From contig NZ_VTWT01000003.1 in NCBI RefSeq assembly GCF_008727925.1, forward strand, positions 372,001-436,000: 64,000 bases of DNA. Reading direction: 5' to 3'. The notes below the pieces were generated by a model. The model was not told where the DNA came from, did no database searches, and worked only from the letters and a program-made list of their open reading frames with translations. The number at the start of each line of letters is the position of its first letter. Positions within the stretch are counted from its first letter, which is position 1. This DNA is from Adhaeribacter soli. Lineage in GTDB: Bacteria; Bacteroidota; Bacteroidia; Cytophagales; Hymenobacteraceae. This document shows, piece after piece, positions 18,318 to 56,416 of this stretch. Made by a program: the position numbers and the translations under genes.

Positions 18318-18598
18318 TTCGGTAGGCAAAGTAAAGCAGGATTTCCCGGAAAATTTAGGAATTGCAGGAATTTTGATCGTAAGTGATTGATTGTTAGGTA
18401 GTATATTTTGGGAAACCGTAGTCCGTAAGCTAAAGCAGACGGCAATGAATTTGGGGATGGTTGGAAAAAGGTTGGGCTGCCTTTTTACTCCGGAAATGCT
18501 ATCGTTTTACGGACTAAAGTCCGTGCGGGCGGCTCCATTTTAAAGCATCCGTAGCGTAGGGTTTAAGCTTTAAGCTTATGCCGTTTGTCTGATAAATT

Positions 18599-18749
18599 CC
18601 GTTGACTAAAGTCAACGGCAATGGATAACAATGTGTTTACAGGTGATCTTAAACTTTTAAAGTTGTTACTTATAACTTCAAGGCACCTCACAAGTAGTAA
18701 ACTTATTTCTGATTATTCTAAATCTATTGCCGTTGACTTTAGTCAACGG
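18599..18749. repeat. Inner inverted pair of CCGTTGACT palindromes
   Basis: CCGTTGACTAAAGTCAACGG at 18599-18618 and CCGTTGACTTTAGTCAACGG at 18730-18749 are each palindromic and are exact reverse complements of one another. GCAATGG follows the first and CTATTGC precedes the second, giving the inverted ends of a 151-bp unit. Confidence 0.75.
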
Positions 18750-18822
18750 AAGTTTTGGAAAGCAGGAAAAAGAAAATTCATAGCCGTCTGCTTTAACTGA
18801 CGGGCTGCTGGCGGAAAATTTG

Positions 18823-18830
18823 TAGCTTCG
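18823..18830 (+). promoter_or_regulatory. Possible rluF -7 box TAGCTTCG
   Basis: This is a near match to TAnnTTTG 8 bases before the start codon. If used, the transcript would be almost leaderless. Confidence 0.3.
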
Positions 18831-18838
18831 CCTGAATC

Positions 18839-19540
18839 ATGAGACCTTTAAACGCTTCCGCCAGACATTTCCTGGTGCAGAAACTGCGCCTTTCCAACAA
18901 GGAAGCAACTGCCCTTATTTTAGCGAAACGCTTCCTGGTGAACGGCCAGCCTGCGCAACTCAACCAGCCTTTGCAGCCCGAAGACGAAGTAAGCTTAGAC
19001 GGCAAAATCCTGAAGGAAGCGCAGCAGTTCCATTACCTCGCCTACTACAAACCGCGCGGCATCGAAACTACTTTAAATGAAGCAATCCCCGATAATTTAA
19101 CCCAGGCCCTGAACTTCCCGGTACGCGTGTACCCCATTGGTCGCCTCGACAAGGATTCGGAAGGTTTACTGCTGCTCACTAACGACGGTTCCATTTTCGA
19201 CAAAATCCTGCACAGCGAACAAAAACAGGAAAAGGAATACGTGGTGCGGGTAGATAAACCGTTGACTTCGGAAGTTATTTCTGCGCTGGCTTCCGGGGTG
19301 GAAATTATGGGGAAGAAAACCCGTCCGGCGGAGGTGAAGCAGCTTGATGAGTTTACGTTCAATATTATTCTCACCCAGGGCCTGAACCGGCAGATCCGGA
19401 GGATGTGCTATAAACTGGGGTATGAGGTTTTAGAGCTGAAACGGGTTCGGATTGTGCATGTGGAGTTAGGGGGTTTGCAGGTTGGGGAATGGCGGGAGTT
19501 GGGGAAGGAGGAAGTTGCGGGATTGAAGAGTTTGGTTTGA
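18839..19540 (+). CDS. rluF: 23S rRNA pseudouridine synthase, RluF-like
   Basis: The 233-residue protein has an N-terminal S4 RNA-binding domain (about residues 5-55, ARHFLVQKLRLSNKEATALI), then the RsuA/RluB/E/F-type catalytic domain. The motif GRLDKDSEGLLLLTNDG carries the nucleophilic Asp near residue 104, and the GLNRQIRRMCYKLGYEV motif is the family's closing signature. RluF isomerises uridine 2604 of 23S rRNA (E. coli numbering). YYKPRGIETT fits the RluF branch, though RluB/RluE cannot be wholly excluded without an alignment. It is monocistronic, and its 3' end is followed within 66 bases by the next small gene. Confidence 0.88.
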   Translation: MRPLNASARHFLVQKLRLSNKEATALILAKRFLVNGQPAQLNQPLQPEDEVSLDGKILKEAQQFHYLAYYKPRGIETTLNEAIPDNLTQALNFPVRVYPIGRLDKDSEGLLLLTNDGSIFDKILHSEQKQEKEYVVRVDKPLTSEVISALASGVEIMGKKTRPAEVKQLDEFTFNIILTQGLNRQIRRMCYKLGYEVLELKRVRIVHVELGGLQVGEWRELGKEEVAGLKSLV

Positions 19541-19605
19541 CAATCTCATTCTCCAACAACTGGCTAATTTATTGGTTATACACTTCTAACCCAGAAGCTA
19601 TACCT

Positions 19606-19869
19606 ATGAACAAGCTACTCAAAACCGAACTGGATTTCCAAGCCGGAAGAGGCACTTTAAAAGCAGAAGCCATCGGGGCATTTTCCGCCGGAGCTTTTGC
19701 GGCCGGCGCGATGGCAGTTGGGGCTTTAGCTGTTGGTGCCCTAGCGATTGGCAGTATGGTTATTGCCCGCATGGGAATTAACCTGGCGCGCATCCGGAAA
19801 CTGACTATTGATGAATTGACGGTGAAACGGTTGCGGGTTGAGGAGGAGTTGGTTAGGCCGGGAAAGTAG
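19606..19869 (+). CDS. Small Ala/Gly-repeat protein of unknown function
   Basis: I take the Met at 19606 (MNKLLKTELDFQAGRG) as the start; a longer frame reaches back into rluF without good sequence. The 87-residue protein has a core of about 35 residues in a tight five-residue rhythm (AFSAG, AFAAG, AMAVG, ALAVG, ALAIG). It is flanked by a polar head and a basic/acidic tail (KLTIDELTVKRLRVEEELV). The rhythm resembles a short pentapeptide-like beta-helix or a glycine-zipper membrane segment; both readings are inference. No family is recognised. Confidence 0.65.
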   Translation: MNKLLKTELDFQAGRGTLKAEAIGAFSAGAFAAGAMAVGALAVGALAIGSMVIARMGINLARIRKLTIDELTVKRLRVEEELVRPGK

Positions 19870-19871
19870 CC

Positions 19872-20390
19872 TTATTTAAGCCAATCAGGCTTTTCATAAT
19901 AAGATTCAACGATTCCTCGCAAATAGTTGCTGCGTTCATTCCCGGATGTAAAAATAGCTTTAATAAAGCTTTTTAAAATCGCTCGGTTTTGTTTGGAATT
20001 GATAGTTGAGAAGACCTTTAGCTTATCCGGGGTTGCTGGTAATTTAAAATCAGCCGGATTTATATTAGCAGCCTTAGCAGTTTCTAACAACCATGTTTCA
20101 GCAGCTGGACTTAATTGGATTAGGATTTTGCTTTCGTCTTGTTGGTGCTTCAATACGGCAACGCCATATTCTGCTTGCTGCACAGTAAACTCATTCATGT
20201 AAGCAAAGGTCAAATGCTTGTCATTATCGATGCATCCAATTAAAGTTTCAAAAGGCAAATCCTGGAATTTTAAGCTTTTCAAAACTTCATTAACACCATG
20301 CCTATGGGTGTATAGGTGGCTTTGATCATAAAGCAATGTCGAATACAGAAGAGTTTCGGTATAACACTCAGAAAGAAAAAGTACAGACAT
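19872..20390 (-). CDS. Small TOPRIM-like protein, partner of the AAA ATPase
   Basis: The 172-residue protein is not recognised by overall sequence but carries TOPRIM-like signals. The N-terminal hydrophobic strand MSVLFLSE ends in a Glu (residue 8) and is followed by a helix. A second strand, LIGCIDNDK, ends in Asp-Asn-Asp (D55, D57), the DxD arrangement used for metal binding. The middle and C-terminal parts are mixed helix. The gene starts 4 bases after the AAA ATPase stop, so the two form a bicistronic unit. AAA ATPase plus TOPRIM nuclease pairs are known in OLD-like and PARIS-type phage defence; membership of such a system is inference from context. Confidence 0.6.
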   Translation of the reverse strand: MSVLFLSECYTETLLYSTLLYDQSHLYTHRHGVNEVLKSLKFQDLPFETLIGCIDNDKHLTFAYMNEFTVQQAEYGVAVLKHQQDESKILIQLSPAAETWLLETAKAANINPADFKLPATPDKLKVFSTINSKQNRAILKSFIKAIFTSGNERSNYLRGIVESYYEKPDWLK

Positions 20391-20394
20391 ACCC

Positions 20395-21504
20395 TTAACT
20401 GTATTTCTCCAGGTTAAAGAAAATTTCCTCCCGCATATTCTGTACGTTCGCTAACTCTTCTTCCGATAAGGTTCGGATATGCGTCTGATCATCTTGGTAA
20501 CTGCAAACGTGAACGGCAATTTCATCTTTGCCTAATCTCTCCAACAGTGTATCGAAAATGTAAGGACTATGCGTGGTAATGAAGTATTGATTGGAAGTAT
20601 CAGCCGCGATCCGGGAAGCCAGCATTTGCACAAACGGCGGAAAAGAATGCGCTTCAGGCTCTTCGAATAATAAAACTGAATTTTTATTGGAATAAATGGC
20701 TGCTAAATAAAAAGCTAACCGCTGAATGGTGTCGGCAATAGATGTATAAGGGAATGCATAAACTTTAGCGCCTTTCTTCCGCTGAACCTCAAGTTTTCTT
20801 TCTTTTACACGAAGAACAAGTTCTAAATCATTGCTAGCTAAGAGCTGATTTATATTATTATAAAGATCCTCATTTAATTCAAGGATGGTAAATAAGTTGT
20901 CTCCGAAAGGTGGTAATAAAAAATCAGAATATTTATTTTTAAAAGTATCATTTGATTTAAATTCGTACTTTTTTACTAGTTGTCCACCTTTAGGATTTGA
21001 AACAACAAAATTATATCCTGACTGATCACTTTTTTCCTTATATACCCCATTCACATCCATTTTATATTGTAAAGCATTTCCAATCTCATTAAATCTTCTA
21101 TTTCTAGCTAGTTGGCTTTGGATATGCTTTATTAAAGCATTACTTCTACTCTCCTTATCAAGTAAACTTTCAATATAGTCACCAGAAATAGCTTCTAATA
21201 AAAGACTATATATAAATTCTAAAGAATTCACTCCCTGTTGTTCTAAGTAAGCTACACCAACATTAGTTTCAACTTTAATTGTTTCCGAGGAGTCATTCTC
21301 ATAAAATAGGTTTTCAATATCATCATACCGAACATAGCCCCGCATAAATTTTTGAGAGTGCTGGTTTGAAGATAATAAGGATAATGCCTCTAGGACATTG
21401 GACTTTCCAACATTTGGGTAACCAATAAGAAGGTTTACCCGCTTTGTCTTTAAAGAAACGAGTTTTAGAGATTTAAAATTTCTGATTATGAGGTCAGTAA
21501 TCAT
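20395..21504 (-). CDS. AAA family ATPase (OLD/AAA_21-like, SMC-type ABC fold)
   Basis: The 369-residue ATPase begins with the typical MITDLIIRNFKSLK strand and a Walker A of form GYPNVGKSN (residues 28-36). The Walker B/signature helix is SVLLFEEPEAHSFPP (about 277-291), and the ITTHSPYIFD switch histidine lies near residue 310. This is the layout of OLD-type and RecF-like defence ATPases without an in-line nuclease domain. The central third (plus-strand 20850-21350) is strikingly AT-rich compared with rluF and uvrA on either side, which suggests recent acquisition. The next gene, 4 bases downstream, is a TOPRIM-like protein that would supply the missing nuclease. Confidence 0.88.
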   Translation of the reverse strand: MITDLIIRNFKSLKLVSLKTKRVNLLIGYPNVGKSNVLEALSLLSSNQHSQKFMRGYVRYDDIENLFYENDSSETIKVETNVGVAYLEQQGVNSLEFIYSLLLEAISGDYIESLLDKESRSNALIKHIQSQLARNRRFNEIGNALQYKMDVNGVYKEKSDQSGYNFVVSNPKGGQLVKKYEFKSNDTFKNKYSDFLLPPFGDNLFTILELNEDLYNNINQLLASNDLELVLRVKERKLEVQRKKGAKVYAFPYTSIADTIQRLAFYLAAIYSNKNSVLLFEEPEAHSFPPFVQMLASRIAADTSNQYFITTHSPYIFDTLLERLGKDEIAVHVCSYQDDQTHIRTLSEEELANVQNMREEIFFNLEKYS

Positions 21505-21696
21505 AGTAATTCTATATATACTGTATATTTTTCAAATTTACCGGAATTAAATTCACAAGCAATAATTTTAAGACAACTTCCCTCAGACCGCTATCCTCCG
21601 CACCCCAAAATCTCCCTCCCAATTCCGCAACCTAAACCCCTTCAAATCTGTTAGGAAGAGTTACTTAAACCACCTGCAAATCTGCGCGTTTATGCG

Positions 21697-21704
21697 TACC
21701 TTTG
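21697..21704 (+). promoter_or_regulatory. Likely uvrA promoter, -7 box TACCTTTG
   Basis: The octamer is a full match to the Bacteroidota TAnnTTTG element and lies 22 bases before the start codon. A -33 box is not obvious. Confidence 0.5.
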
Positions 21705-21726
21705 CAGATTAATTCTTACCAGATAC

Positions 21727-24600
21727 ATGGCTGACAAAAAGCTTGATCCGGTTGCGGCAACAGGCATAGACGTACCTTTTATTGAAGTGTACGGCGCCCG
21801 CGAGCACAACCTTAAAAATATTTCCCTTACCATTCCGCGCAACCAGCTGGTGGTGTTCACCGGCATCAGCGGCAGCGGCAAATCGTCGCTCGCCTTCGAT
21901 ACCATTTACGCCGAAGGGCAGCGCCGCTACATGGAAACCTTTTCCGCCTATGCCCGCTCCTTTCTGGGCGGACTGGATCGTCCGAACGTCGATAAGATCG
22001 AAGGACTTTCGCCGGTAATTTCCATTGAGCAGAAAACCACGAGCCGCAACCCGCGCTCCACGGTGGGCACCATCACGGAGATCTACGATTTTATGCGCCT
22101 GCTTTATGCGCGTACCGCCGAGGCTTTCAGTTATGTGACCGGCAAAAAAATGATCCGGCAAAGCGACGAGCAGATCGTAAACCACATCCTGGAAAATTTG
22201 AACGGCAAAAAGCTGATCGTGCTGGCGCCGGTGGTAAAAGGCCGGAAAGGCCACTACCGCGAACTCTTCGAGCAGATCCGGAAGATGGGTTTTGTGCGCG
22301 TGCGCGTAGACGGCGAACTGCTGGAGCTGGTCCCGAAAATGCAGCTCGACCGCTACAAAATTCACGACATCGAGATCGTGATCGATAAAATTGTGGTGAA
22401 CGCCGATGATCGTTACCGTTTGTCGAATTCGGTACAGAATGCGCTCACGCACGGCAAAGGTACCATCTTGATTCAGGATGCCGAAACCAACGAAACGCAA
22501 TTCTTCTCCCGCTTTTTAATGGACCCGGAAAGCGGCATCGCCTACGACGATCCGGCCCCGAACACCTTTTCCTTTAACTCCCCGTACGGCGCCTGCCCCA
22601 ACTGCAACGGCCTCGGCGAAATTCAGGAACTGACCGAAGACGCCATTATTCCGGACAAAACCAAAACGATCCGGCAGGGCGCCATTGCCCCGCTCGGTGA
22701 GTACCGCGACCTCTGGATCTTTCACCAGGTAGAAGCCCTGCTGAAGGAATTCAAAGCGAAACTGACCACGCCCATCAAAGACCTGCCGGAAGATGCTTAC
22801 AAAATTCTGCTGTACGGTTTAGACGAAGAGCTGGAAGTTAAAACCAAAAAAGGTACTTACGCGGTAGAGTTCGAAGGCATCGTAAATTTCCTGCGCAAGC
22901 AAATGGAATCCGATTCGGAGAACATTCGTGAATGGATCTCGGAATATACCCGCAAAGTTACCTGTCCGGAATGCAACGGTTTGCGCCTGAAAAAGGAATC
23001 GCTGCACTTCAAGATAGACCAGAAAAATATCGGCGAACTTTCCAATATCACGATCGATAAACTGGCGGCCTGGTTCGAAGGTTTGGAAGATCGGATGAAC
23101 GAACGCCAGAATGTAATTGCGCGCGAACTGCTGAAAGAGATCCGCAAACGCATCGGCTTTTTACTGGATGTCGGTCTGGATTACCTGAGTTTACACCGTT
23201 CCGTGCGTACCCTCTCCGGCGGCGAAAGTCAGCGGATCCGGTTGGCCACGCAGATCGGAACGCAGCTGGTTGGCGTGCTTTACATCATGGATGAACCCAG
23301 CATCGGCCTGCACCAGCGCGACAACGAGAAACTGATCAAAGCGCTGCAAAACCTCCGCGACTTGGGTAACTCCGTAATTGTGGTGGAGCACGACAAAGAC
23401 ATGATCCTGAATGCCGATTACGTGCTCGATATTGGTCCGGGCGCCGGCGTGCATGGCGGACAAATTGTAACTTCCGGAACCCCGGAAGAAATGATGAAGT
23501 CCGGCAGCTTAACCGCCGATTTTTTAAGCGGCCGCAAAGGCATTGAAGTAGACAAAACCAAACGCGAAGGCACCGGTAAAGAACTGAAGCTTTTCGGGGC
23601 AACCGGCAACAATTTAAAGAACGTAACGGTAGCGTTTCCGCTCGGAAAATTCATTGCGGTAACCGGCGTTTCGGGCAGCGGCAAATCCACGCTCATTCAC
23701 GACACACTTTACCCGATCCTGAACCAATTCTTCTTCAACGCCAAACGCGATCCGCTGCCATATAAGAAAATTGAAGGTCTGGAATTTATCGATAAAGTAA
23801 TTGAAGTAGACCAAAGCCCGATCGGAAGAACGCCTCGTTCCAATCCGGCAACGTATACCGGCATGTTCACCGATATCCGGAATTTGTACGCCCAATTACC
23901 GGAGTCGAAGATTCGAGGGTATACCGCCGGCAGATTTTCATTTAACGTAAAAGGCGGCCGCTGCGAAGTCTGCGAAGGCGCCGGTATGCGAACCATCGAA
24001 ATGAACTTCATGCCGGACGTGTACGTGCCCTGCGACGCCTGCAAAGGTAAACGCTACAACCGCGAAACCCTGGAAGTACGCTTCAAAGGCAAATCGATTA
24101 CCGATGTTTTGGAAATGACGGTAGAAAAAGCCGTGGAGTTCTTCGAAAACCAGCCCCGCATTCAGCGCAAAGTGAAAGTGTTGAACGAAGTGGGTTTGGG
24201 TTACATCACGCTGGGCCAACAGGCTACCACACTTTCCGGTGGCGAAGCGCAACGGGTAAAACTAAGCACCGAGCTTTCGAAAAAAGATACCGGCCGCACG
24301 TTCTACATTCTCGATGAACCAACTACCGGTCTTCACTTTCAGGACATTCAGCATTTAAGTGAAGTGCTCCGCAAACTGGTAGACAAAGGCAATACGGTTC
24401 TGATCATTGAGCACAACTTAGACCTGATAAAAGTAGCCGACCACATCATCGATATCGGTCCGGAAGGCGGCGATGCGGGCGGGACGGTAGTAGCGCAAGG
24501 CACGCCGGAAGAAGTTGCCAAAGTGAAAAAAGGCCATACGCCACGGTTTATTAAGGAAGAACTGGCTACGAGTATTTACCGGGAGAAACAGGCTTCTTAA
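21727..24600 (+). CDS. uvrA: Excinuclease ABC subunit UvrA
   Basis: UvrA scans DNA for bulky lesions and loads UvrB in nucleotide excision repair. The 957-residue protein has two ABC ATPase halves. Walker A motifs are GISGSGKSSL (near residue 46) and GVSGSGKSTL; signature motifs are LSGGESQRIRLA and LSGGEAQRVKLS; Walker B motifs are LYIMDEPSIGLHQRD and FYILDEPTTGLHFQD. Zinc-binding CxxC pairs appear as CPNCNGLGE, CPECNGL, CEVCEGAGM and CDACKGKRYN. Length and all motifs are intact. It is monocistronic, divergent from the ATPase/TOPRIM pair, with a terminator at 24629-24659. Confidence 0.98.
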   Translation: MADKKLDPVAATGIDVPFIEVYGAREHNLKNISLTIPRNQLVVFTGISGSGKSSLAFDTIYAEGQRRYMETFSAYARSFLGGLDRPNVDKIEGLSPVISIEQKTTSRNPRSTVGTITEIYDFMRLLYARTAEAFSYVTGKKMIRQSDEQIVNHILENLNGKKLIVLAPVVKGRKGHYRELFEQIRKMGFVRVRVDGELLELVPKMQLDRYKIHDIEIVIDKIVVNADDRYRLSNSVQNALTHGKGTILIQDAETNETQFFSRFLMDPESGIAYDDPAPNTFSFNSPYGACPNCNGLGEIQELTEDAIIPDKTKTIRQGAIAPLGEYRDLWIFHQVEALLKEFKAKLTTPIKDLPEDAYKILLYGLDEELEVKTKKGTYAVEFEGIVNFLRKQMESDSENIREWISEYTRKVTCPECNGLRLKKESLHFKIDQKNIGELSNITIDKLAAWFEGLEDRMNERQNVIARELLKEIRKRIGFLLDVGLDYLSLHRSVRTLSGGESQRIRLATQIGTQLVGVLYIMDEPSIGLHQRDNEKLIKALQNLRDLGNSVIVVEHDKDMILNADYVLDIGPGAGVHGGQIVTSGTPEEMMKSGSLTADFLSGRKGIEVDKTKREGTGKELKLFGATGNNLKNVTVAFPLGKFIAVTGVSGSGKSTLIHDTLYPILNQFFFNAKRDPLPYKKIEGLEFIDKVIEVDQSPIGRTPRSNPATYTGMFTDIRNLYAQLPESKIRGYTAGRFSFNVKGGRCEVCEGAGMRTIEMNFMPDVYVPCDACKGKRYNRETLEVRFKGKSITDVLEMTVEKAVEFFENQPRIQRKVKVLNEVGLGYITLGQQATTLSGGEAQRVKLSTELSKKDTGRTFYILDEPTTGLHFQDIQHLSEVLRKLVDKGNTVLIIEHNLDLIKVADHIIDIGPEGGDAGGTVVAQGTPEEVAKVKKGHTPRFIKEELATSIYREKQAS

Positions 24601-34341: not shown

Positions 34342-35646
34342 TTAAAGCTTGTAACTTTTTAATACTTTATCAAAGCTCTTCGATTTAATAAAGCTCTGTT
34401 TTTTCTTATTGACTTGAATTACGTCTAGGAAGCCTAACTCAACGAGCATTTTAAGATCTGATCTGGCTGTAAAATTGGATATATTAAATCTGGTTTCAAT
34501 TTCTTTCGAGTTTAATGCCCGGTCTGGATCGTCATGTAGGATTTTCAGGATCTGAGCCATCCGGTCATTTACCTGGGGGATCTTCATGAACTTGGCGGCC
34601 TGAAAAACTTCCCTTTGTTTTCGATTAATATATTCTTTTAAGGCTTCGTAAGCCTTTTCCATTGTGTTGATGTGGTAGGTAATAAAGTAGCTTAAATCAT
34701 TATTATCTATTTCAGTATAAAGAAATGCTTTTTCATATTGAATTTTTGTATCCTTTATTATTCTGGAAATCGATAAGTATTCGGTTAGCCAATAGCCTTT
34801 TTTAAGCATATACCAATAAAATAGCGCTCTGGCAGTTCTCCCATTTCCATCGGTAAAGGGATGGATCCAGCCAACCATAAAATGGATAATGCAGCCTTTT
34901 ATAATCGGATGGATAAAATTCTCTGAGTCATTGTTAAAAAAGAAGCAGAGGTCTTTAATTAATTCTTCTAATTCAGTTTGGTGAGGTGGGGTATGTACAA
35001 TTTCGCTATCAATATGATTAACAACATGAACGTCATCATTATCTCTGAACCGGCCTTCATCTTCCGGGTCATCCAACGTTTTACTGGCTATTAATTTATG
35101 GATATAGAGAATTTTTTCCGGTGATATCTCTTCGTTTTTGAGCTGAATAATATGTTTCATGGTTGTAAAATTATTCATGATCATTTGTTCAGATTTATTT
35201 CTGGGCTTTTGCTCCTGTTGGATCATCTCCTTCGCTTTTTTCCGGGTAGTATTGGCTCCTTCCATCTGACTACTGGAAATAGCTTCTTCCATAATGGAGC
35301 TTATTATAAACTTCGTTTTGTCAGTTTCGGCAATTCCGATATTACTGCCTAAAGTGCCGCCAATATGCATATCGAATTGGTGCAAGGCTCGTTGCATAAA
35401 ATCGGTTATTACAAAATTGAAGGTAAAGTTGCCGAACTTTATTCTATCGGTTTTAAGGAATCGTTGAAACTTCACGGCGCTCCAGAGTTCTTCTGGAGTA
35501 TAATCTTTGCCTTTGGACTTGTATTTTATTTTATCCCAATATAGGTAGCTGTCCTGAATAGGTTTCAAAGTCCCATCAAGTTGAAGTTTTACCATTAAGG
35601 ATAAAATATTGTCGTTTTGTTTTGGCTTGGGCGCTTGTTCAATCAT
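34342..35646 (-). CDS. Fic family protein with C-terminal winged helix
   Basis: The 434-residue protein carries the Fic active-site loop HPFTDGNGRTAR near residue 258, used to transfer AMP or a related moiety to a hydroxyl side chain of a target protein. An N-terminal Fic_N-type region contains SSQMEG (about residue 126), which fits the inhibitory S/TxxxE(G/N) helix of class II Fic proteins and implies autoinhibition. The C-terminus has a winged helix-turn-helix (RFNISNFTARSDLKMLVELG), common in solitary DNA-associated Fic proteins. The target is unknown. A perfect 14-bp inverted repeat lies 28 bases upstream of the start. Confidence 0.92.
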   Translation of the reverse strand: MIEQAPKPKQNDNILSLMVKLQLDGTLKPIQDSYLYWDKIKYKSKGKDYTPEELWSAVKFQRFLKTDRIKFGNFTFNFVITDFMQRALHQFDMHIGGTLGSNIGIAETDKTKFIISSIMEEAISSSQMEGANTTRKKAKEMIQQEQKPRNKSEQMIMNNFTTMKHIIQLKNEEISPEKILYIHKLIASKTLDDPEDEGRFRDNDDVHVVNHIDSEIVHTPPHQTELEELIKDLCFFFNNDSENFIHPIIKGCIIHFMVGWIHPFTDGNGRTARALFYWYMLKKGYWLTEYLSISRIIKDTKIQYEKAFLYTEIDNNDLSYFITYHINTMEKAYEALKEYINRKQREVFQAAKFMKIPQVNDRMAQILKILHDDPDRALNSKEIETRFNISNFTARSDLKMLVELGFLDVIQVNKKKQSFIKSKSFDKVLKSYKL

Positions 35647-47602: not shown

Positions 47603-48049
47603 TTATTCATTTAAGGACTTAATGCCTTGTTCCTGCAGTTTGGCTAATCCGTCTTTCATGGCTTTTACCTTTTCGGGCGGGTGGGGCTGCCAGCTTATAA
47701 CTTCGCCAACTACTCTGAACGGATGTTGCGAACGGTAAGATCTGGTTGGGTTACCCGGAAATTTCTTGTCAGTCAGATCGGGGTCGTCTTCGATTGGCCC
47801 GGTCGGTTCTACTAAATAAATTCTTTCCCTTTCATCGCCAAAGGCCAGTTCAGCACCCCAGATAGCGGCATCCAGTGTGGCTGTAAGGAAGATATACCTT
47901 GCATTTTTTCTTTCCCCGTAGTTTGAGTTAAAACCGACTTCAATAATATCTCCGGGCTTTAAATCAGCCTTCGTGCCGTGAAAGTAAGTCTGGGCAAAAG
48001 GGGTAGGGCTTTGGCTATTCGATTTGCTCTCGGCTTGGTTCTTTTCCAT
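47603..48049 (-). CDS. arr: NAD(+)-rifampin ADP-ribosyltransferase Arr, copy 1
   Basis: Arr inactivates rifamycins by ADP-ribosylating the C23 hydroxyl, using NAD+. The 148-residue protein is full length. FAQTYFHGTKADLKPGD holds the NAD-binding His (residue 24), NARYIFLTATLDAAIWGAEL the Tyr (about 52), and EDDPDLTDKKFPGNPTRSYR the catalytic-region Asp. A Ser/Asn-rich N-terminus precedes it. It is about 93% identical to copy 2 at 55970-56416 (11 differences counted). It is the last gene of array 1; no attC-like site follows its stop. arr genes are well-known integron cassettes. Natural substrate in this organism is not shown. Confidence 0.93.
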   Translation of the reverse strand: MEKNQAESKSNSQSPTPFAQTYFHGTKADLKPGDIIEVGFNSNYGERKNARYIFLTATLDAAIWGAELAFGDERERIYLVEPTGPIEDDPDLTDKKFPGNPTRSYRSQHPFRVVGEVISWQPHPPEKVKAMKDGLAKLQEQGIKSLNE

Positions 48050-55969: not shown

Positions 55970-56416
55970 TTATTCATATAAGGACTTAATGCCTTGTTCC
56001 TGCAGTTTGGCTAATCCGTCTTTCATGGCTTTTACTTTTTCGGGTGAGTGGGCCTGCCAGTTTGTAGCTTCGCCAACTACTCTGAACGGATGTTGCGAAC
56101 GGTAAGATCTGGTTGGGTTGCCCGGAAATTTTTTGTCGGTCAGGTCGGGGTCGTCTTCGATTGGCCCGGTTGGTTCTACTAAATAAATTCTTCCCCTTCC
56201 ATCGCCGTAGGCCAGTTCAGCACCCCAGATAGCGGCATCCAGCGTGGCTGTCAGGAAGATATACCTTGCATTCTTTCTTTCTCCGTAGTTGGAGTTAAAT
56301 CCAACTTCAATAATATCTCCGGGCTTTAAGTCTGCCTTCGTGCCGTGAAAATAGGTTTGGGCAAAAGGGGTAGGGCTTTGGCTATTCGGTTTGTCCTCGG
56401 CTTGGTTCTTTTCCAT
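55970..56416 (-). CDS. arr: NAD(+)-rifampin ADP-ribosyltransferase Arr, copy 2
   Basis: Full-length second copy of Arr, same 148 residues and same His/Tyr/Asp pattern as copy 1, with 11 substitutions that leave the catalytic segments intact (for example AYGDGRGR for AFGDERER and EATNWQAHSP for EVISWQPHPP). It is the last gene of array 2. The upstream 85 bases are also alike in both copies, and similarity fades at the preceding attC-like site. No attC-like site follows its stop. Both copies look functional. Confidence 0.93.
   Translation of the reverse strand: MEKNQAEDKPNSQSPTPFAQTYFHGTKADLKPGDIIEVGFNSNYGERKNARYIFLTATLDAAIWGAELAYGDGRGRIYLVEPTGPIEDDPDLTDKKFPGNPTRSYRSQHPFRVVGEATNWQAHSPEKVKAMKDGLAKLQEQGIKSLYE

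Follow-up and report, generated by a model that had tools for sequence, protein, structure and literature searches.

A candidate split OLD-type ATPase-TOPRIM defence pair of Adhaeribacter soli and block replacement in the ATPase centre of its relatives

Described ATPase-TOPRIM systems and the Adhaeribacter pair

ATPase-TOPRIM pairs make up a large class of defence genes, most of which are uncharacterised; the trigger that they sense is known for a minority. In PARIS, the class 4 OLD system, an OLD-type ABC ATPase (AriA) and a TOPRIM protein (AriB) are encoded by separate, adjacent genes, and the system is defined by a DUF4435 partner, AriB, beside an AAA_15/AAA_21 ATPase (PMC9122126). The PARIS ATPase is a sensor that holds the TOPRIM nuclease until a phage protein is sensed and then sets it free (PMC12409363). 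AbiL, composed of AbiLi and AbiLii, is also counted among the ABC ATPase-TOPRIM defence systems (PMC12409363). The same order of genes, an ATPase followed by a small TOPRIM-like protein, is found in the two-gene systems with a DUF4276 (PF14103) partner, known in PADLOC as HEC-01. Class 1 OLD, Gabija GajA and the retron Eco8 OLD nuclease belong to the same ATPase superfamily.

The window analysed here is a stretch of 64,000 nucleotides from Adhaeribacter soli, in which two minus-strand genes are arranged in this manner. The first encodes a 369-aa ABC ATPase of the OLD type (P0001; 20395..21504) and the second a candidate mini-TOPRIM nuclease of 172 aa (P0002; 19872..20390), with 4 bases (20391-20394) separating the ATPase stop from the partner start, as a first-pass annotation made from the letters of the DNA had described. 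The pair shares a divergent intergenic region (21505..21726) with uvrA, which runs from 21727 onwards, and is flanked on the other side by a small ORF that adjoins the gene of an rsuA-like pseudouridine synthase (ending 19869). The local AT-richness in that annotation is borne out: GC content is 34% in the ATPase gene and 37% in the partner gene, against 47-52% in the flanks, and the central ATPase segment (20920-21348) has 29%. One promoter-like match, on the minus strand at 21527-21500, extends over the ATPase start; since such matches were about as frequent in shuffles (8 in the scanned region versus 5.9), a promoter for the pair is not established.

P0001 is assigned to AAA_15 (Pfam E 4.6e-19; 69.7 bits, where the cut-off is 32.1) and AAA_21 (1.4e-12), in both cases well clear of the Pfam cut-off, and its C-terminal end carries no nuclease domain, in keeping with the OLD-like ATPase lacking a nuclease that had been proposed. 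Its N-terminal core (residues 1-52; 21349..21504), highly conserved in close pairs, contains the Walker A motif GYPNVGKSN (21397-21423) and the invariant residues G28, P30, N31, G33, K34 and S35. The C-terminal core (residues 196-369; 20395..20919) contains the signature-like SIADTIQR (20719-20742), the Walker B motif LLFEEPEAH (20647-20673) and TTHSP (20563-20577), with D258, T259, R262, E281, E282, E284, H312, S313 and P314 invariant. Between them lies a variable segment (residues 53-195; 20920..21348), the proposed recognition segment. Across 25 relatives the OLD-type motif set GYPNVGKSN, SIADTIQR, EEPEAH and THSP is invariant or nearly so. The family profile recovered the Eco8 OLD protein from the PDB as its second-best solved match (5.7e-10), and AriA was absent from the PDB matches at E up to 10, among the best 60 of 73. 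An AlphaFold2 model of P0001 built with three relatives reached a pLDDT of 44. In general kind, the two genes constitute a split OLD-type ATPase-TOPRIM unit whose small partner has a putative TOPRIM fold.

Like PARIS, the pair combines an AAA_15/AAA_21 ATPase with a separate partner gene and is patchy and mobile. PARIS is further characterised by trigger-dependent tRNA cleavage and growth arrest. Membership was assessed by a DUF4435 match above 27 bits next to AAA_15/AAA_21; at E up to 1, DUF4435 matched neither P0002 nor any of its 28 relatives, and identity with PARIS was rejected on the absence of this partner. The P0002-type partner also differs from AriB in being small. Class 1 OLD, GajA and the Eco8 protein differ from the window pair, whose ATPase and nuclease are separate chains. 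Gabija, the class 2 OLD system, was rejected because the ATPase is not fused to a TOPRIM domain and the neighbouring ORFs, by reading, include no UvrD-type helicase. The comparison with AriA/AriB and class 2 OLD suggested at the outset therefore stood for the two-gene architecture shared with PARIS, and failed for the DUF4435 partner and the Gabija fusion and helicase. A retron-type (class 3) OLD was likewise rejected, as there is no reverse transcriptase among the neighbouring ORFs, by reading, and no Rfam RNA in 18500-22500. The AbiLi model matches P0001 over its length (3.4e-17), a generic match given that 85 PADLOC families match, and the AbiLii models found no match in 28 partners.

From the DUF4276-partner systems, which share its gene order, the pair is set apart in the ATPase tree: the paired ATPases of the P0001 family form one clade (SH-aLRT 99), separate from that of the DUF4276-partner ATPases (SH-aLRT 96). 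The Walker A motif differs as well, being GxPNVGKSN in the P0001 family and mostly GxNGxGKS in the DUF4276-partner ATPases. The DUF4276 cut-off of 30.2 bits was reached by none of 28 partner family members, three of which gave a match (best E 0.033). HEC-01A matches P0001 generically (4.2e-15), and HEC-01B gave weak matches in two of 28 relatives (best 0.005) and none for P0002.

A small partner with TOPRIM-like motifs

The minimal TOPRIM pattern that the first-pass annotation had picked out in P0002 is conserved among 33 relatives with an overall identity of ~19-30%. E8, the putative catalytic glutamate (codon 20367..20369), is kept in 33/33, and in the DxD motif GCIDNDK (codons D55-N56-D57, 20220..20228) D55 is kept in 33/33 and D57 in 32/33. 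The family also keeps G52 and, further along, a third motif, PAxExWL (codons E98-x-W100, 20091..20099), in which position 98 is E in 28 and D in 5 of the 33, and position 100 is W in 25 and F in 8. The motif call holds because E8, D55 and D57 are near-invariant. Partner length ranges from 149 to about 200 aa among the relatives seen.

P0002 has no matching model in Pfam, PADLOC, NCBIfam or PHROGs, and its family is a partner family that these models miss. In scans of single members no match reached threshold; the Pfam family seen most often was DUF4276, and in PADLOC it was HEC-01B. Profile comparison by hhalign brought the relationship out more clearly: the P0002 family profile scored 27-28 against DUF4276 (27.3 in the permutation comparison), whereas 200 profiles with permuted columns averaged 11.8 (sd 2.2) and peaked at 19.5, and the reversed profile scored 12.8. 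The resemblance to DUF4276 partners extends over the E, DxD and E-x-W/E-x-E motifs, with E98-x-W100 aligned to the E-x-E-A motif of DUF4276. Scores against the OLD TOPRIM and DUF4435 profiles were marginal, and the DUF4276 profile itself matches OLD TOPRIM at 1.1e-6. On the strength of the conserved E/DxD set and the DUF4276 profile similarity, P0002 is taken as a remote and very small member of the TOPRIM family, and would by the same token be a nuclease.

An unrelated small accessory protein, in which the E and DxD pattern is fortuitous, seems to us improbable. Such a protein would explain why the libraries hold no match and why the AlphaFold2 model, built from P0002 and one relative, has a mean pLDDT of only 47.9, and one relative (L080) has N in place of the second D of DxD. 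Against it stand the near-invariance of the E, G and DxD set at such low overall identity, a profile similarity to DUF4276 far outside the permuted distribution, and a first motif that in several relatives (L054, L083) takes the more canonical form EG..D. We therefore continue to treat P0002 as a putative TOPRIM protein.

Block replacement in the ATPase centre

In comparisons between loci that share a genomic site, both ATPase cores, N and C, and the nuclease can be near-identical while the ATPase centre is unrelated, a block replacement between close relatives that is new in this analysis. In the pair L159/L160, identity is 97-99% in the upstream DNA, 45-57% in the ATPase centre and 91-99% downstream through the nuclease, whose protein is 98% identical. 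Equivalent replacements are seen in L050/L052 (centre 25%, nuclease 94%), L164/L165 (centre 26%, nuclease 87%) and L031/L155 (centre 43%, nuclease 90%). The replacements lie at the equivalent place in these four pairs of relatives; none is seen at the window locus, which has no close relative that carries the pair. In L158, at the same site and beside a similar ATPase, the unrelated part is the nuclease. Because the centre or the nuclease can be unrelated while the rest of a same-site locus is near-identical, these segments have, most simply, been exchanged between loci by recombination.

Weak constraint on a linker, whose divergence would be uninformative about recognition, could also produce a variable centre. 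The segment is indeed gappy and poorly aligned between distant relatives, with a baseline identity of ~25% among distant members. Under plain descent it is nevertheless kept: L166 matches L164 throughout, with 93% identity in the centre and 95% in the C core. Orphan ATPases, which have no nuclease partner, give centre identities of 65-89% for C cores of 82-93%, whereas in the 16 comparisons of paired ATPases with C cores of at least 80% identity the median centre identity is 32%; the orphans are few and from one site, so that this contrast rests on three comparisons of related genes. Where the centre changes, a whole block is replaced abruptly, with sharp boundaries to flanks that are near-identical, and we find the linker explanation very unlikely.

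A control set of DUF4276-partner ATPases from the same genus (L173-L198), at differing genomic locations, also has a hypervariable centre between conserved cores. Among those with a C core of at least 70% identity the median centre identity is 44%, and L175/L178 show 97% in the N core, 42% in the centre and 98% in the C core, a pattern that again speaks against a slack linker. The idea that central variability is unique to the P0001 family was rejected on these grounds; since the control set varies likewise, the property is common to at least two ATPase clades. The block replacement is our main support for reading these ATPases as participants in an arms race, a reading drawn from sequence comparison.

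Distribution, decay and proposed role of the pair

An order-level search of 390 genomes recovered P0002 homologues in 26, and in 26/26 the gene lies directly behind a P0001 homologue or overlaps it shortly, one of these loci having an interrupted partner gene. With every locus adjacent, the pairing is not due to chance. At family level the pair is present in 21/200 genomes, far from the universal conservation at this locus that the first-pass annotation had named as refuting its reading. The same linkage extends to other Bacteroidota classes, to the gammaproteobacterium Methylocucumis and to the archaeal provirus GahPV1, whose gp15/gp16 form the pair (gp16, 149 aa); the P0002-type pair thereby adds to this class of systems a copy carried by an archaeal virus. 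In the ATPase tree GahPV1 groups with a Bacteroidota sequence (SH-aLRT 97) and Methylocucumis lies inside a clade of the window's order (SH-aLRT 99). The only other genome of the genus lacks the pair at this site and has an unrelated ORF between the same flanks. These observations support an accessory, mobile and horizontally transferred unit, and with it the transfer suggested by the first-pass annotation.

The ORF in the sister genome (L071:11601-12860), AT-rich at 32% GC, encodes 419 aa that match nothing in Pfam; different cargo appears to be accommodated at this site. Methylocucumis has, immediately upstream of its pair, a small ORF (L054:9384-9953) with LCED...MIDAD, which possibly encodes a second TOPRIM-like protein.

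A cellular role in nucleic-acid maintenance or repair, by a RecF-type ATPase with a TOPRIM protein or by a pair resembling archaeal Cran1, would make the distribution merely patchy. The archaeal OLD-type protein Cran1 acts in the cell cycle and apparently not in defence (PMC12796447), the surroundings of the pair are housekeeping genes, here uvrA, and the P0001 family profile also recovered RecF, Rad50 and SMC from the PDB. Such a role, if conserved, is hard to square with ~10% occupancy in the family and the lack of the pair in the second genome of the genus, and equally with copies that are inactivated, a spread that crosses domains and ATPase centres that are replaced, and we give it little credence.

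Decay of the pair is seen in several relatives. The nuclease gene is split in L053 by an IS630-like transposase, identified by ORF reading, and is broken in L166, and solitary family ATPases without a nuclease occur in Hymenobacter (L055, L056, L031:836-2041, L053:118-1395). These lie beside an aldehyde dehydrogenase gene and, in the loci that were read, also beside a gene for an HtrA-like protease. For this HtrA/aldehyde-dehydrogenase site, a simple series of decay from an ancestral pair was considered and dropped, since the orphan ATPases form a clade of their own and are not nested with the pairs found there.

Such losses would also fit a toxin-antitoxin-like module for the stability or competition of mobile elements, in which the small TOPRIM protein is a toxin, the ATPase its neutraliser, and no phage is sensed. 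A patchy two-gene operon at variable sites, one of them in a provirus, agrees with that idea, and so does the order of decay, the nuclease being lost first while the ATPase persists. The putative toxin gene, however, stands second, behind the larger ATPase gene, and a 369-aa ATPase with a recombining centre exceeds what neutralisation needs. By analogy, the finding that deletion of either gene is non-toxic in PARIS, which excluded a toxin-antitoxin system there (PMC9122126), would weigh against it here as well. We regard a toxin-antitoxin-like module as unlikely.

Phage and plasmid searches returned only GahPV1 and one partial plasmid ATPase, and no relatives turned up in viral contigs scanned with both archaeal-virus proteins, the ATPase and three sub-alignments of the partner. 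The enrichment of homologues in defence islands that the earlier annotation had proposed was not found: the 130 neighbours of 25 loci gave isolated matches, a methylase, Cas1 and MADS3 among those listed, and were otherwise mostly housekeeping genes.

Post hoc, the pair was seen often to adjoin tRNA-related genes, with metG assigned by Pfam in five related loci (L037, L043, L049, L050 and L052), and thrS, glyS, mnmE and miaB recognised by reading elsewhere (L028, L054, L167, L169).

Taken as a whole, and with PARIS as the guide, the pair is probably a split OLD-type, PARIS-like abortive-infection defence module with an exchangeable recognition segment. The ATPase would act as the sensor and hold the small TOPRIM protein inactive in a complex, and the central segment (residues 53-195) would recognise a trigger, for which a component of a phage or mobile element is the likeliest candidate. 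Its recognition would alter the state of the ATPase and free or activate the TOPRIM protein, which would then cut nucleic acid, host RNA or DNA, and so arrest growth or halt the invader. The central segment would be swapped between lineages by homologous recombination in the two conserved cores, N and C, so that specificity could change while switch and effector stay, much as specificity domains are swapped in type I restriction enzymes. The exchangeable centre is, again by analogy, the most likely place of trigger recognition; it could instead bind a self molecule or a partner. Natural alleles that differ mainly in this putative sensing segment are available in L159/L160, L050/L052 and L164/L165, and they make the determinant of trigger specificity testable by comparison of alleles.

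More tentatively, and at what we judge to be just short of an even chance, these ATPases may belong to a family of prokaryotic immune sensors, spread among Bacteroidota, a gammaproteobacterium and an archaeal virus, in which the centre of the OLD-type ATPase serves as a recognition cassette that is exchanged through recombination in its conserved flanks, with the switch and the mini-TOPRIM effector constant. The recurrence of this design in the DUF4276-partner ATPase clade suggests that exchange may be a general route to new trigger specificities in split OLD systems.

Further genes of interest were observed in the same genome. Two more OLD-like TOPRIM matches (G000:C10:254492-254701 and G000:C11:32357-32563) lie in long frames of 635 and 740 aa. 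Within the window, a Fic/DOC-family gene (34342-35646; 434 aa), AT-rich at 36% GC, stands between GC-richer genes, and two rifampin ADP-ribosyltransferase-like genes (47603-48049 and 55970-56416; Arr-ms, about 1e-48) each adjoin a series of small ORFs that are AT-rich (GC 29-38%), possibly a duplicated accessory block.
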